Shown: one piece after another, positions 47,019-60,313 of the stretch
Layout of the letters: every line of letters begins with the position of its first letter
Numbering within the stretch: position 1 is the first letter of the stretch
Assembly (NCBI RefSeq): GCF_015354445.1
Contig: NZ_JADKYT010000001.1
Span: 1 to 64,000, forward strand
DNA length: 64,000 bases
From: Methylophilus sp. QUAN
Lineage (GTDB): Bacteria; Pseudomonadota; Gammaproteobacteria; Burkholderiales; Methylophilaceae
Reading direction: 5' to 3'
Program-made: the position numbers and the translations under genes
The notes under the pieces: generated by a model
The model's input: only the letters and a program-made list of their open reading frames with translations
Told to the model about the DNA's origin: nothing
Database searches by the model: none

Positions 47019-47568
47019 TTTCGCCTTGTTGGCGAGTCACTTTCTGGTGCTTGCCCCCCAGAAAGTAACCAAAGAAGAGGGCACCCAGCCACCACGGCCT
47101 AAAGGCTCCCTTGCGTTGCTCAACAAAACAAGCGGTCACGAAACTCGCCCTAGCAGCTTGCACACTACACAAGCTGCCGCGGAACTCAAACAGTCGCTCC
47201 CTTCCTTCTTGTTTTGTCTCCGCTACTCAGCGTGATGGAATGGGATTTATCTCAACTAACCTGCATTACTTCAGTTTGAAGGGTTAGAAAACCAGATTCA
47301 TTTCTTAAAATCACTTGCCGTTGCGTTCATTGGGTGTTCGGGGTCCCCATCTGCCGCGCCGAGCAACGCAGGGTTGACGGGAGTATTCGGCCATCGGCTG
47401 TTTGAGCTCCGCAACAAGCCACGTCTTGTGTGGCTTGTCAGGGCGAGTTTCGATGGCCGCCCGGCAAACCGAGTAGCACAAGGAACAAGCGGAAGTTGGG
47501 GTGCACTTTCTTTTGGTTACTTGTTCTTTGTGCAAGCAAAGAAAAGTAACTCGCCAAAAAGGCGAAAA
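47019..47568. repeat. Structured dispersed repeat, copy 1
   Basis: About 550 bp, sharing long blocks with copy 2 (59729-60313) in the same orientation. It holds a series of hairpins: TCGCC/GGCGA at 47021-47035, ACTTTCTGG/CCAGAAAGT at 47039-47066, GCAGCTTG/CAAGCTGC at 47153-47177, ACAAGCCAC/GTGGCTTGT at 47414-47438 and TCGCC/GGCGA at 47551-47565. The two ends are inverted repeats of each other (about 70 bp), and inner segments such as 47140-47193 recur inverted at 47398-47451. No transposase or supported coding frame. Frames of 60-138 codons inside it are by-products. Confidence 0.8.
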
Positions 47569-47634
47569 GCAACCTTACCACCCCTAAAAAACAGCAGCTC
47601 CAAAGAATTACCTTCCCGCCTGATTCCAACAAAT

Positions 47635-47662
47635 AAAAAAGCGCCTCGATTTCTCAAGGCGC
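47635..47662 (-). terminator. Terminator of katG
   Basis: GCGCCTCGA/TCAAGGCGC stem (one internal mismatch), followed on the minus strand by six T residues, 22 bp after the katG stop. Confidence 0.85.
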
Positions 47663-47684
47663 TTTCGCTTTACAAAAATAGTAA

Positions 47685-49868
47685 TTACTTCAGATCAAAC
47701 CGATCCGCATTCATGACTTTCGTCCAAGCAGCCACAAAATCCTGCACAAACTTCTGTTTGGCATCGTCTTGTGCATACAGCTCTGCATAAGCTCGCAGTA
47801 TGGAATTAGAACCAAACACCAAGTCCACACGTGTAGCAGTCCACTTCACTGCACCGGTGCTGCGGTCACGCACTTCATACAGGTTTTGCCCTGTTGGCAC
47901 CCATGTATAACGCATGTCAGTCAGGTTAACAAAGAAGTCGTTACTGAGCACACCTGGCCTATCGGTAAACACGCCGTGCCTGCTGCCACCGTGATTGGTA
48001 TCCAGCACACGCAGGCCACCGATCAACACCGTCATTTCCGGTGCGGTCAGACCCATCAGTTGCGTACGGTCCAGCAACATATCTTCCGGACTGGGCACAT
48101 AGTCCGCTTTCAGCCAGTTGCGGTAACCATCATGTACTGGCTCCAGCACATCAAAAGACTCCGCATCGGTCTGCTCGGCAGTCGCATCGCCACGGCCTGT
48201 AGTAAATGGTACTTTCACCTCAACACCTGCCGCCTTGGCTGCCTGCTCAACTGCGGCAGTGCCTGCCAGCACAATCAGGTCGGCCAGACTGACTGGTTTG
48301 CCAAACGCTTGCTGAATCGCTTGCAGAACAGCCAACACTTTTTGTAAGCGGACGGGCTCATTGCCTACCCAGTCTTTTTGTGGCGCCAGGCGAATACGTG
48401 CACCATTGGCACCGCCACGATAATCCGACGCACGGAAAGTGCGCGCGCTGTCCCAGGCGGTAGCAACCAGTTCAGCCGTCGTCAGGCCGCTACCCAGGAT
48501 TTGCGCTTTCAAAGCAGCGACATCCGCCTCGCTCAGCGCATTGCCGACAGGCACCGGGTCTTGCCAGATCAGGTCTTCTTGCGGCACATCCGGGCCAATA
48601 TAACGGGCTTTTGGCCCCATGTCGCGGTGTGTCAGCTTGAACCAGGCGCGGGCAAACACCTCGGAGAAATACGCCTGGTCATCGCGGAAACGTTCCGAGA
48701 TCTGGCGGTAAGCCGGGTCTTTAATCATGGCCATGTCAGCATCGGTCATAATCGGGTTATAACGGATGCTAGGATCTTCGACATCGACCGGTTTGTCTTC
48801 CTCCTTGATGCTCACAGGCTCCCACTGCCAGGCACCCGCCGGGCTCTTGCTAAGCGTCCATTCGTGGTTAAACAGCATGGCAAAATAGCCGTTATCCCAG
48901 CGCGTCGGATGCGTGGTCCAGGCGCCTTCAATACCGCTAGTCACTGAGTCACGGCCAACACCGCGTGTCGTATGGTTATTCCAACCCAGGCCTTGCTCAT
49001 GCACATCGGCAGCTTCAGGATCGGCGCCAAGATTACTGGCCTGGCCGTTGCCGTGTGCCTTACCTACAGTGTGCCCCCCTGCCGTCAATGCCACGGTTTC
49101 TTCATCATTCATGGCCATGCGGGCAAAAGTTTCACGGATATCGTGCGCTGTTCTTAATGGGTCAGGGTTGCCATCTACCCCTTCAGGGTTGACATAAATC
49201 AGGCCCATCATCACCGCCGCCAGCGGGTTTTCGAGATCGCGCTGGCCGGAATAACGATTACCTTCGCTACCGGTTTTGGCCAGCCATTCTTTTTCGTTAC
49301 CCCAGTAAATGTCTTTTTCCGGATGCCAGATATCTTCACGACCAAAGGCAAAACCAAAGGTTTTGAGGCCCATGGACTCATAAGCGATAGTGCCGGCGAG
49401 GGCGATCAAATCTGCCCAGGACAGTTTGTTGCCATATTTTTTCTTCACAGGCCATAACAGGCGGCGCGCCTTATCTAGGTTGACGTTATCTGGCCAGCTA
49501 TTAAGTGGCGCAAAGCGCTGGTTACCGGTTCCTGCACCGCCGCGGCCATCTGCCACACGGTAAGTCCCGGCTGCGTGCCAGGTCAGGCGGATCATTAAGC
49601 CACCGTAATGACCCCAATCAGCTGGCCACCACGCCTGGCTGTTGATCATTAAAGCATGCAAATCTTTCTTCACAGCCGCCACATCAAGGGTCGCGACAGC
49701 CTCACGATAATTAAAAGCCTCCCCCAGAGGATTAGTTTTACGGTCATGCTGATGCAAGATATCCAGATTTAATGCATTAGGCCACCAATTGGTATTGGAT
49801 TGACCGCTAGCAGTAATGGCCCCGTGGCTAAAAGGACACTTGCCGGTCGTGTGTTGTTTATTCTCCAT
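47685..49868 (-). CDS. katG: Bifunctional catalase-peroxidase
   Basis: 727 residues, the full length for KatG. The N-terminal haem domain has the distal Arg-Trp-His set in [13 protein letters not shown], the Tyr of the Met-Tyr-Trp adduct in [12 protein letters not shown] and the proximal His region [16 protein letters not shown]. The C-terminal domain is the inactive duplicate. Removes hydrogen peroxide. AAGGAG lies just upstream of the ATG. It is opposite oxyR, the expected regulator. Confidence 0.97.
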
Positions 49869-58676: not shown

Positions 58677-58697
58677 CCCGACAGAAAACAACGCCTT

Positions 58698-59708
58698 ATG
58701 AATCGTGTCTTGATTGAAAATAGCGGCCACATTTTTGATGTGCGCCCTAGCCAAACCGTGCTGGAAGCCGCCATCGAAGCCGGTATCAACCTGCCTTACG
58801 GTTGCCGCAATGGCGCCTGCGGCGCATGTAAAGGCAAAGTGTTGACCGGCAAAGTCATGCATGACGACTTTCAAGGCAATGCGCTGACCGATGCAGAACT
58901 AGCCGCAGGCCTGGCACTGTTTTGCTGTGCGCGCCCACTGGAAGACCTCGTCATAGAATGCCGCCAGATTGATATGGTGCAAGGCATCAAGCCACGCATT
59001 CTGCCCGTGCGCATCCAGCATAAAGAGCAGCTAGGCGATGACGTCATGGTGCTGCATTTACAGTTGCCAGGCACCGAACAACTCACCTTTATGGCCGGGC
59101 AATATGTCGAATTCCTACTCAAAGACGGACGCCGCCGCGCATTTTCCATCGCCAATGCCCCGCACGAAAAAGGCTTTATCGAGCTGCACATCCGCAAAAT
59201 TGCCGGTGGTCACTTCACCGAACAAGTATTTAACGAGATGCCGGTAAAAACCATACTTCGCATAGAAGCACCCTTGGGTAGCTTTTTCCTGCGTGAACAA
59301 AATGACAAGCCTATCATCATGGTCGCCGGTGGCACTGGTTTTGCGCCGGTGAAAGGCATGATAGAGCACATGATTTTCAACCAGATCCAGAGACCGGTTT
59401 ACCTGTATCGCGGCGCGCGTCAGATGGATGATTTGTATATGGATGACTTGTGCCAGCGCTGGGCGCAGTTTATGCCGAATATTCAATATATCCCGGTGAT
59501 TTCAGATGGCAACAACAGTGATAACTGGGATGGCCGCCGCGGACTGGTGCATCAGGCCGTGCTGGAAGATCATGCGGATTTGAGTGGATTTGAAGTGTAT
59601 GTGTGTGGCGCACCTGGCATGGTAGATATTGCCAAACAGACGTTTGTCGCGCGTGGGCTGCCTGAAGAAGAGTTTTATAGTGATGCGTTTACGTTTGCGC
59701 CTAAGTAA
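58698..59708 (+). CDS. 2Fe-2S ferredoxin-NAD(P)H reductase (CDP-deoxyhexulose reductase-like)
   Basis: 336 residues. An N-terminal plant-type ferredoxin domain (1-95) has cluster ligands in GCRNGACGACKG and a further Cys in CCARPL. A flavin-binding barrel (about 100-195, RRAFSIANAPHEKG) and an NAD-binding domain (GGTGFAPVKGMIEHM, YVCGAPGMVD) complete a single-chain electron chain NAD(P)H-FAD-2Fe2S. Close to AscD/RfbI-type CDP-6-deoxy-delta-3,4-glucoseen reductases and oxygenase reductases; no sugar partner gene is nearby, so the electron acceptor is unknown. Confidence 0.88.
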   Translation: MNRVLIENSGHIFDVRPSQTVLEAAIEAGINLPYGCRNGACGACKGKVLTGKVMHDDFQGNALTDAELAAGLALFCCARPLEDLVIECRQIDMVQGIKPRILPVRIQHKEQLGDDVMVLHLQLPGTEQLTFMAGQYVEFLLKDGRRRAFSIANAPHEKGFIELHIRKIAGGHFTEQVFNEMPVKTILRIEAPLGSFFLREQNDKPIIMVAGGTGFAPVKGMIEHMIFNQIQRPVYLYRGARQMDDLYMDDLCQRWAQFMPNIQYIPVISDGNNSDNWDGRRGLVHQAVLEDHADLSGFEVYVCGAPGMVDIAKQTFVARGLPEEEFYSDAFTFAPK

Positions 59709-59728
59709 CTTGCCTCTGCCTTGCGCTA

Positions 59729-60313
59729 TTTTTTCGCCTGTAGGCGAGTCACTTTCTGATGCTTGCCCCTCAGAAAGTAACCAAAGAGGAGGGCACCCAG
59801 CCATCACGGCCTAAAGGCTCCCTTGCGTTGCTCAAATTAGGACTTTCGTCCGTTGCTTTGCTGGACTTAGGCATAAGCCGGTCACGAAACTCATCCTAGC
59901 GGGCTGCACACTACGCAGCCCACCGCGGGATTCGGACAGTCGCTCCCTCTACTCTTATTTTGTCTCCGCTACTCAGCGTGATGGAATGGGATTTGTCTCG
60001 CCAAACTCAACATAGTAGAAGTTTGAACGGTTAAAAAACAGATTGGTTTGTTAAAAGCACAAATAGTAGCATTCGCCTGGTGTTCGGGGTCCCCATCTGC
60101 CGCGCCGAGCAACGCAGGGTTGGCGGGAGTTCTCGGCCATCGGCTGTTTGAGCTCCGCAACAAGCCACGTTCTGTGTGGCTTGTCAGGGCGAGTTTCGAT
60201 GGACGCCCGGCAAACCGAGTAGCACAGGAATCAAGCGGAAGCTGGGGTGCATTTCTTTTGGTTACTTGTTCTTTGGGCAAGCAAAGAAAAGTAACTCGCT
60301 GTAAAAGCGAAAA
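59729..60313. repeat. Structured dispersed repeat, copy 2
   Basis: About 585 bp, same order and orientation of blocks as copy 1 (47019-47568), with about 35 bp extra near 59845-59880. Hairpins corresponding to copy 1 are TCGCC/GGCGA (59734-59747), ACTTTCTGA/TCAGAAAGT (59751-59778), GCGGGCTG/CAGCCCAC (59899-59923) and TCGCT/AGCGA (60296-60310). Several stem positions differ from copy 1 on both strands in a paired way. It begins 21 bp after the reductase stop and ends 15 bp before the hemB stop, filling the whole gap between convergent genes; no gene is present in it. Confidence 0.8.

Follow-up and report, generated by a model that had tools for sequence, protein, structure and literature searches.

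The first 64,000 nucleotides of contig NZ_JADKYT010000001.1 of Methylophilus sp. QUAN (positions 1 to 64,000, forward strand; hereafter the window) carry two copies of a two-ended, intergenic element of about 550 bp. From sequence comparison, we infer that each end of this element would fold, when read outward, into an H-type pseudoknot in which about eight base triples form a triple helix in the major groove, a fold richer than the hairpins noticed in an initial annotation of the window. The inference draws on covariation of the stem and the pseudoknot across genera, and on a pyrimidine linker whose bases follow those of the purine arm in the same end. The element belongs to a widespread family of bacterial DNA elements that appears to be undescribed.

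Predicted fold of the end units

The end unit is about 80 nt long, with a conserved foot (GGGTG...TCGCC). Read outward, a short strand of the pseudoknot comes first, then a pyrimidine linker and a stem-loop of 13–15 bp whose loop closes the pseudoknot, and finally a second hairpin. We aligned 66 distinct ends (from 71 rows) from 31 genomes, fitting them to a structured model, which favours pairing (alignment A2). In this alignment 96.6% of 1174 cells were paired, and 16 of 18 pairs had changed on both sides, two of them in the pseudoknot; the stem alone had 97.6% of its cells paired and double changes in 14 of 15 pairs. The covariation score was 0.495, compared with a mean of 0.155 after shuffling and 0.06–0.10 in slid registers. 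Two of the three pseudoknot pairs covary, the first being CG in 25, UA in 21, and GC in 10 of 63 ends, and the second CG in 41, GC in 8, UA in 4, and AU in 2 of 64. Stem and pseudoknot both covary, as expected of an H-type pseudoknot. The initial annotation had proposed that pairing is conserved over sequence, which would indicate a functional fold of RNA or single-stranded DNA (ssDNA), and had held that additional copies with unpaired stem changes would count against it; the stem pairing across these ends supports the proposal, and unpaired cells are present but few.

Linker and purine arm of the same end mirror each other in A2, with 509 of 527 cells fitting the code (T opposite A in 428, C opposite G in 76, and G opposite T in 5; opposite C the linker has C in 5 cells and T in 3). 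One-base-off registers fit in about 54% of cells (54.5% in the next one), and permuting among ends 2,000 times yielded 411 fitting cells on average and 448 at most. Seven cells have T in the purine arm, and in 5 of them the linker base is G, whose use against a T-A pair is the classical natural-base exception in pyrimidine-motif DNA triplexes. Because the linker obeys the pyrimidine-motif rules (T.A-T and C+.G-C) against its own purine arm, each end should form a pseudoknot-triplex. The left ends of the window genome fit the code less well, with C or T opposite C.

The linker was also tested in new loci, with a sequence-only end model (R2) trained on A2 sequences. The sample comprised 27 records, 26 of the 30 loci from a search across the phylum plus locus L170, and omitted the window genome and three genomes already in A2. 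It gave 57 hits, from which we removed 18 weaker ones (12 the same hairpin on the other strand, and six other far ends at L173:957, L174:2095, L176:2108, L177:2405, L186:2063, and L190:2142); of the 39 main hits, three were dropped for hairpin shape. In the remaining 36, 261 of 288 cells fit the code (58% in the next register; at most 244 cells in 1,000 permutations), 29 ends were perfect, and the other seven resemble, by eye, one-base register shifts. With the weaker hits retained, 260 of 384 cells fit in 48 ends. The pseudoknot triplet was complementary in 30 of the 36, at either of two offsets. L170 came from a pattern already containing the linker-arm relation, and R2 had A2 sequences as its training set, so that the sample, though new, is not fully independent. 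In 26 two-ended elements whose arms are unlike, the linker matched its own stem better than that of the opposite end in 21, equally well in 5, and worse in none (best of three registers; 349 vs. 312 of 416 cells).

Copies in the window and its genus

The two copies lie in the same orientation, as initially described, and are 81% identical over query bases 20–570. Their ends, claimed to be mutual inverted repeats of about 70 bp, proved to be so over 68–69 bp with 77% identity. The features are given below, with bit scores for R1, a model of the outward-read end made from 41 ends of the window genome.

46990..47003, + strand: outer motif AAAAGGTTGTTCTT, roughly inverse to the right outer motif
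47019..47567, + strand: copy 1, two-ended element, between the uppP start (46814) and the katG 3′ end (47685)
47019..47091, - strand: left end unit of copy 1 (R1 match, 86.0 bits)
47153..47177, + strand: module hairpin GCAGCTTG/CAAGCTGC, exchanged among copies
47398..47449, + strand: internal conserved motif CTGTTTGAG...CGAGTT
47487..47567, + strand: right end unit of copy 1, outward on the + strand (R1 match, 98.6 bits)
47503..47505, + strand: predicted pseudoknot 5′ strand GCA, which complements the loop TGC (47531-47533) (from sequence and the covariation rule)
47507..47514, + strand: predicted third-strand octet TTTCTTTT, opposite AAAGAAAA at 47538-47545 (from sequence and the linker code)
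47516..47550, + strand: right-end stem-loop of copy 1, GTTACTTGTTCTTTG-TGCAAG-CAAAGAAAAGTAAC
47550..47565, + strand: terminal hairpin of copy 1, CTCGCCAAAAAGGCGA
47602..47616, + strand: outer motif AAAGAATTACCTTCC, past a variable C/A-rich spacer
59732..60313, + strand: copy 2, flanked by the 3′ end of a gene for a flavin/ferredoxin-type reductase (59708) and that of hemB (60329)
59731..59803, - strand: left end unit of copy 2 (R1 match, 80.6 bits)
60233..60312, + strand: right end unit of copy 2 (R1 match, 89.9 bits)
60249-60251, + strand: right-end pseudoknot triplet GCA of copy 2, imperfect against loop GGC (one base off)
60252-60259, + strand: predicted third-strand octet TTTCTTTT of copy 2, opposite AAAGAAAA at 60283-60290

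The left unit of copy 1 runs outward on the minus strand in the order pseudoknot strand, linker, stem-loop, and terminal hairpin. The pattern CTGTTTGAG...CGAGTT, which was derived from this family, occurs in 29 of 52 two-ended elements vs. none of 297 control windows. At 47570-47616 and in the right flanks of many copies, a variable-length, C/A-rich, G-poor spacer is followed by a AAAGAATnACCTT-like motif, whose inverse stands outside some left ends; in the window genus the element may in truth end at these outer motifs. The left arm of copy 2 has an extra hairpin of 35–40 bp (GGACTTTCGTCC...) at about 59835-59873, found at the same place in loci L020, L021, and L023, and further small palindromic repeats lie inside or next to copies at L028 and L151.

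A DNA search with the element as query located about 28 element places, some truncated, in the window genome (3,154,887 bases in 6 contigs), a recurrence well beyond chance. These hold no cargo genes, and palindromic arms lie between their ends instead. The 26 copies beyond the window were retrieved with 400–500 bp flanks, and all 28 were aligned; the consensus fold refers to 24 of them (L019, L028, L033, and L034 left out). Pairing was Watson-Crick in 204 of 216 cells of the module hairpin (with 11 A.C), in 232 of 236 cells of the left-end hairpin, and in 276 of 288 cells of the right-end hairpin. Element matches were found in 19 of 21 genomes of the same genus, plus a few other genera.

The paired changes reported between the two window copies were for the most part recovered. 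TGG/CCA becomes TGA/TCA in the left-end hairpin, and TCGCC/GGCGA becomes TCGCT/AGCGA; the change from GCAGCTTG/CAAGCTGC to GCGGGCTG/CAGCCCAC is likewise present but incompletely compensated, because the second pair in copy 2 is a C.A mismatch. Copies are mosaics, each hairpin position holding one of a few nearly self-complementary stem modules, and orthologous sites in sister species carry different modules. Since whole modules swap among copies and orthologs, the compensation between the two window copies is partly module exchange, and two such copies alone are no proof of independent compensatory mutations. The covariation check that the initial annotation had suggested for collected copies thus has a divided outcome: partly module swapping within the genus, and true covariation across genera.

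To judge the age of the copies, the joined flanks of 12 of them were searched in four related genomes, with sizes taken from coordinates. The two flanks were present and separated by an element-sized gap (some 0.5–1.0 kb; 160 bp expected if empty) at all 12 sites in G013 and G008, at 11 of 11 assessable sites in G002, and at 4 of 4 in G020. Five more sites, judged by sequence comparison, were kept in 5 of 5 cases in G008 and G002 and in 4 of 5 in G013, which is without the 84-kb copy and whose junction is not clean. The 47-kb copy is absent from the more distant congeners (four compared) and the 59.7-kb copy from one of them, with flanks too diverged for a junction; at element-less sites in G021, G014, G005, and G004 the sequence is too diverged to reveal one. 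No target duplication was found at the compared sites. Because the judged sites are common to near species, the copies of the window genome are old, and most have been retained through descent. The search for empty sites as a sign of mobility, also suggested initially, gave no insertion polymorphism or clean junction among the judged sites.

Spread and cargo of the family

R1 matched 86 of 369 genomes across the class (69 of 272 genera). In a phylum-wide sample of 398 genomes and 213 genera, R2 matched 54 and 40, respectively; 45 of the 54 genomes belong to the same class and nine, weakly matched, to one family of another class; both sets of counts are lower bounds, because the filters were strict. 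The ends were thus found in about one-seventh (phylum sample) to one-quarter (class sample) of the searched genomes. Among named records, similar end hairpins occur in Pseudoalteromonas, Aeromonas caviae, Burkholderia, Paraburkholderia, Caballeronia, and Pasteurella multocida. The Pasteurella element, by eye, is two-ended and about 420 bp long, and it terminates some 5 bp away from the stop codon of dapF. We had considered single-ended units in Burkholderiales and dropped the idea for three Paraburkholderia stretches, where the second end is about 500 bp away; in the Burkholderia stretches examined, just one end was found. Ends also form tandem arrays (L119 in G231 and L116 in Pseudoalteromonas). 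Outside the usual class, a pattern scan of genome contigs, which matched two stretches, gave a near-consensus end in a Desulfobulbus metagenome-assembled genome (L170), where contamination is possible.

Viral contigs (searched with an exact pattern) and phages and Escherichia coli (searched by similarity) gave no matches, such searches reaching close matches only. When the window region and 10 relatives were scanned with Rfam 15, no family reached the gathering score, and eight weaker matches were judged chance. A literature search, whose coverage excluded most subscription journals and all preprints, returned no account of this element or of triplex ends.

An empty element is about 0.5–0.6 kb long, and some relatives hold one or more genes between their ends. 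The 32 distinct two-ended elements measured 464 to 2115 bp; 23 are shorter than 700 bp and so are probably empty, but 23 of 32 gives no frequency estimate because long elements were partly sought out. The cargo includes a DpnII-MboI-type nuclease domain in G179 (Pfam, 5.8e-41; PADLOC Aga_Helical-REase, 3.9e-26), an HTH_37 and Gp49-like pair in G117, arranged like a HigBA-type toxin-antitoxin pair, a methyltransferase in G186, a NIPSNAP protein in G789 (where the far end is a weak match of a second type), an SNase with an SH3 domain in G108, a possible PEP-CTERM protein under the cut-off in G142, and elsewhere small membrane proteins or lipoproteins without family. A 5.4-kb end pair in G117 holds an IS110 transposase and a 709-aa fusion of a tyrosine recombinase with IS91, which may be insertions and not an autonomous form of the element. 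Paraburkholderia strain MBA4 has a gene matching IS256-family records between the ends, and IS110, IS30-like (HTH_38), IS256-family, and IS91-type genes were seen between ends at L140, L141, L144, and L226:27954-29893.

Proposed function of the ends and comparison with known systems

Genes called with a simple codon-usage script gave neighbours for 27 of the 28 copies in the window genome, and these were convergent in 15 cases, tandem in 11, and divergent in one. A background of 116 gaps in 144 kb, itself with five element sites, held 15 convergent, 86 tandem, and 15 divergent gaps, so that convergent neighbours are in excess at the copies (P = 8e-6), also against gaps >150 bp, of which 4 of 30 are convergent (P = 0.0016). 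Both stop codons were ≤83 bp from the element in 10 of the 15 convergent cases, and because they lie so close, neighbour transcripts may enter it.

Our best explanation, which we put forward tentatively, is that the fold would work in RNA, as a bidirectional 3′-end structure of the two-ended element. Transcripts exiting either way, from a cargo gene or by convergent read-through, would carry an outward pseudoknot-triplex and hairpin near their 3′ end, where it would block 3′ exonucleases and perhaps RNA polymerase. Such a role would account for outward units at both ends, for linkers that follow their own stems, for the preference for gene 3′ ends, and for copies kept in place, which would presumably have spread by mobilization in trans.

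An RNA role also agrees with the outward-read mismatches in 82 distinct end hairpins, which favoured G.T over A.C (21 to 5; P = 0.0025 if independent), as did those in A2 (77 to 5, or 28 to 5 minus the closing pair), but this excess comprises non-independent events. Several observations weigh against an RNA role. Over the whole element, the 1x1 mismatches of the window genus were G.T in 25 and A.C in 33 cases, compared with 31 and 31 for the fold of the other strand. A single functional RNA strand over the whole element, which we had considered, is unsupported, because there is no such strand preference and the minus strand folds slightly better. A strong terminator-like katG hairpin (47666-47637, minus strand) precedes copy 1, so that katG transcripts probably end before reaching it, and a terminator search found only a weak inward terminator-like site inside the copies. 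Copies at gene 3′ ends could simply be the tolerated ones. As to the triplex itself, long-range pairing of the two ends competes with it, C+.G-C triples require protonation, and a second end type (GGGGCAAGCG followed by a T run), seen in four genomes facing a normal end (L173:957, L174:2095, L176:2108, and L177:2405), fits the code poorly.

Close behind the RNA role, and hardly less plausible, comes the view that the units are folded ssDNA ends of a nonautonomous mobile cassette, in which a recombinase or transposase acting in trans would recognize the pseudoknot-triplex on the strand with its 3′ end at each terminus and move single genes from one genome to another. Integron integrases and TnpA(REP) do recognize folded ssDNA. 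Varied cargo, tandem arrays, the patchy spread over 69 of 272 genera, and the presence of a unit at both ends in inverted orientation all agree with a cassette. So does an integron integrase above the family cut-off in six of seven element-rich genomes vs. none of 14 control genomes, although the seven were picked for their elements, two belong to one genus, and the controls are unmatched. The integrase gene of the window genome (C1:1379041-1379970) lies apart from the elements, and no element end stood beside a full-length integrase in the stretches around integron integrases, the nearest ends being in G371, 13 kb from one, and in G186, 11 kb from an integrase match that fell under the cut-off. 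Mobility as ssDNA is further disfavoured by the lack of insertion polymorphism and target duplication at sites common to near species, by the lack of a recombinase gene common to the elements examined, and by the failure to find a Y1 transposase in the window genome. Close relatives of G186 were also searched for an empty site, and none was near enough. Elements were seen next to or near tyrosine-recombinase genes at C3:462881-463428 in the window genome, at C1:2092792-2096335 in G142, and at L227 (weak TIGR02249 matches, and annotated xerC in Pasteurella), which amounts to three lineages, although coincidence is possible.

The two functions might be combined, though we consider this rather doubtful: the family would then be a second integron-like cassette system of Gammaproteobacteria (in the GTDB sense), in which single genes lie between two outward pseudoknot-triplex ends, a recombinase acting in trans, possibly the integron integrase, reads these ends as folded ssDNA, and the ends also protect the RNA of what lies between them.

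It is improbable that template switching and gene conversion merely keep the arms complementary in an old, inert repeat. The swapping of whole-hairpin modules among copies and orthologs, and the absence of strand preference over the whole element, agree with such upkeep, but it leaves unexplained the pseudoknot covariation, the triplex-rule linker (including G opposite T), and the own-stem match across genera. Least probable is an outward unit that scaffolds a small guide RNA with the adjacent flank as its 3′ part, as TnpB omega-RNA and Cas12 RNAs, which use pseudoknots, might suggest along with the outward orientation, the pseudoknot and triplex, and the variable sequence past the last hairpin, since the examined elements had no linked partner nuclease gene and the Rfam scans described above gave none at the gathering score.

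Among known systems, repetitive extragenic palindromic sequences (REP), bacterial interspersed mosaic elements (BIME), and REP doublets forming hairpins (REPIN) likewise occur as many intergenic palindromic copies at the 3′ ends of genes; insertion sequences target them, and a role in mRNA stability has been suggested. REP and BIME are described as palindromes of 20–40 bp with a GTAG or CGTC tag; the present element has neither that palindrome size nor the tag, but is about 550 bp long, two-ended, with predicted pseudoknot-triplex ends, and can enclose genes, and the Y1 transposase (PF01797) was not found in the window genome or in G179, whereas the other five of seven genomes have it. Like miniature inverted-repeat transposable elements, it is apparently noncoding, has many copies, and ends in inverted repeats, but its ends are structurally constrained folds, target duplication was not seen, and its sites are old.

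Integron cassettes also carry genes singly, and of comparable types (toxin-antitoxin-like pair, methyltransferase, and NIPSNAP), form tandem arrays, and make recognition of folded ssDNA conceivable here too. Each cassette, however, has one attC, with core sites GTTRRRY/RYYYAAC, whereas this element has two inverted structured ends and lies apart from the integrase; inspection of the end-unit consensus by eye showed no attC arms (RYYYAAC...GTTRRRY), and neither did a crude scan of eight stretches made without a positive control. If the fold acts in ssDNA, it would be a recombination site of a new type and could offer defence-type and toxin-antitoxin genes a new route of transfer.

Telomerase RNA and the element for nuclear expression (ENE) of MALAT1-type RNAs form H-type pseudoknot triple helices. 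The end unit shares with them the order S1-5′, linker, S2-5′, S1-3′, and S2-3′ and a pyrimidine linker directed toward the major groove of the long stem, and differs in being bacterial, in occurring as an inverted pair that bounds a repeat or cassette, and in having a linker that covaries with the stem. If the fold acts in RNA, it would be a bacterial counterpart to the 3′-end triple helices. Evolutionary covariation of a base-triple code is a rare kind of evidence for a triple helix to come from sequence alone.

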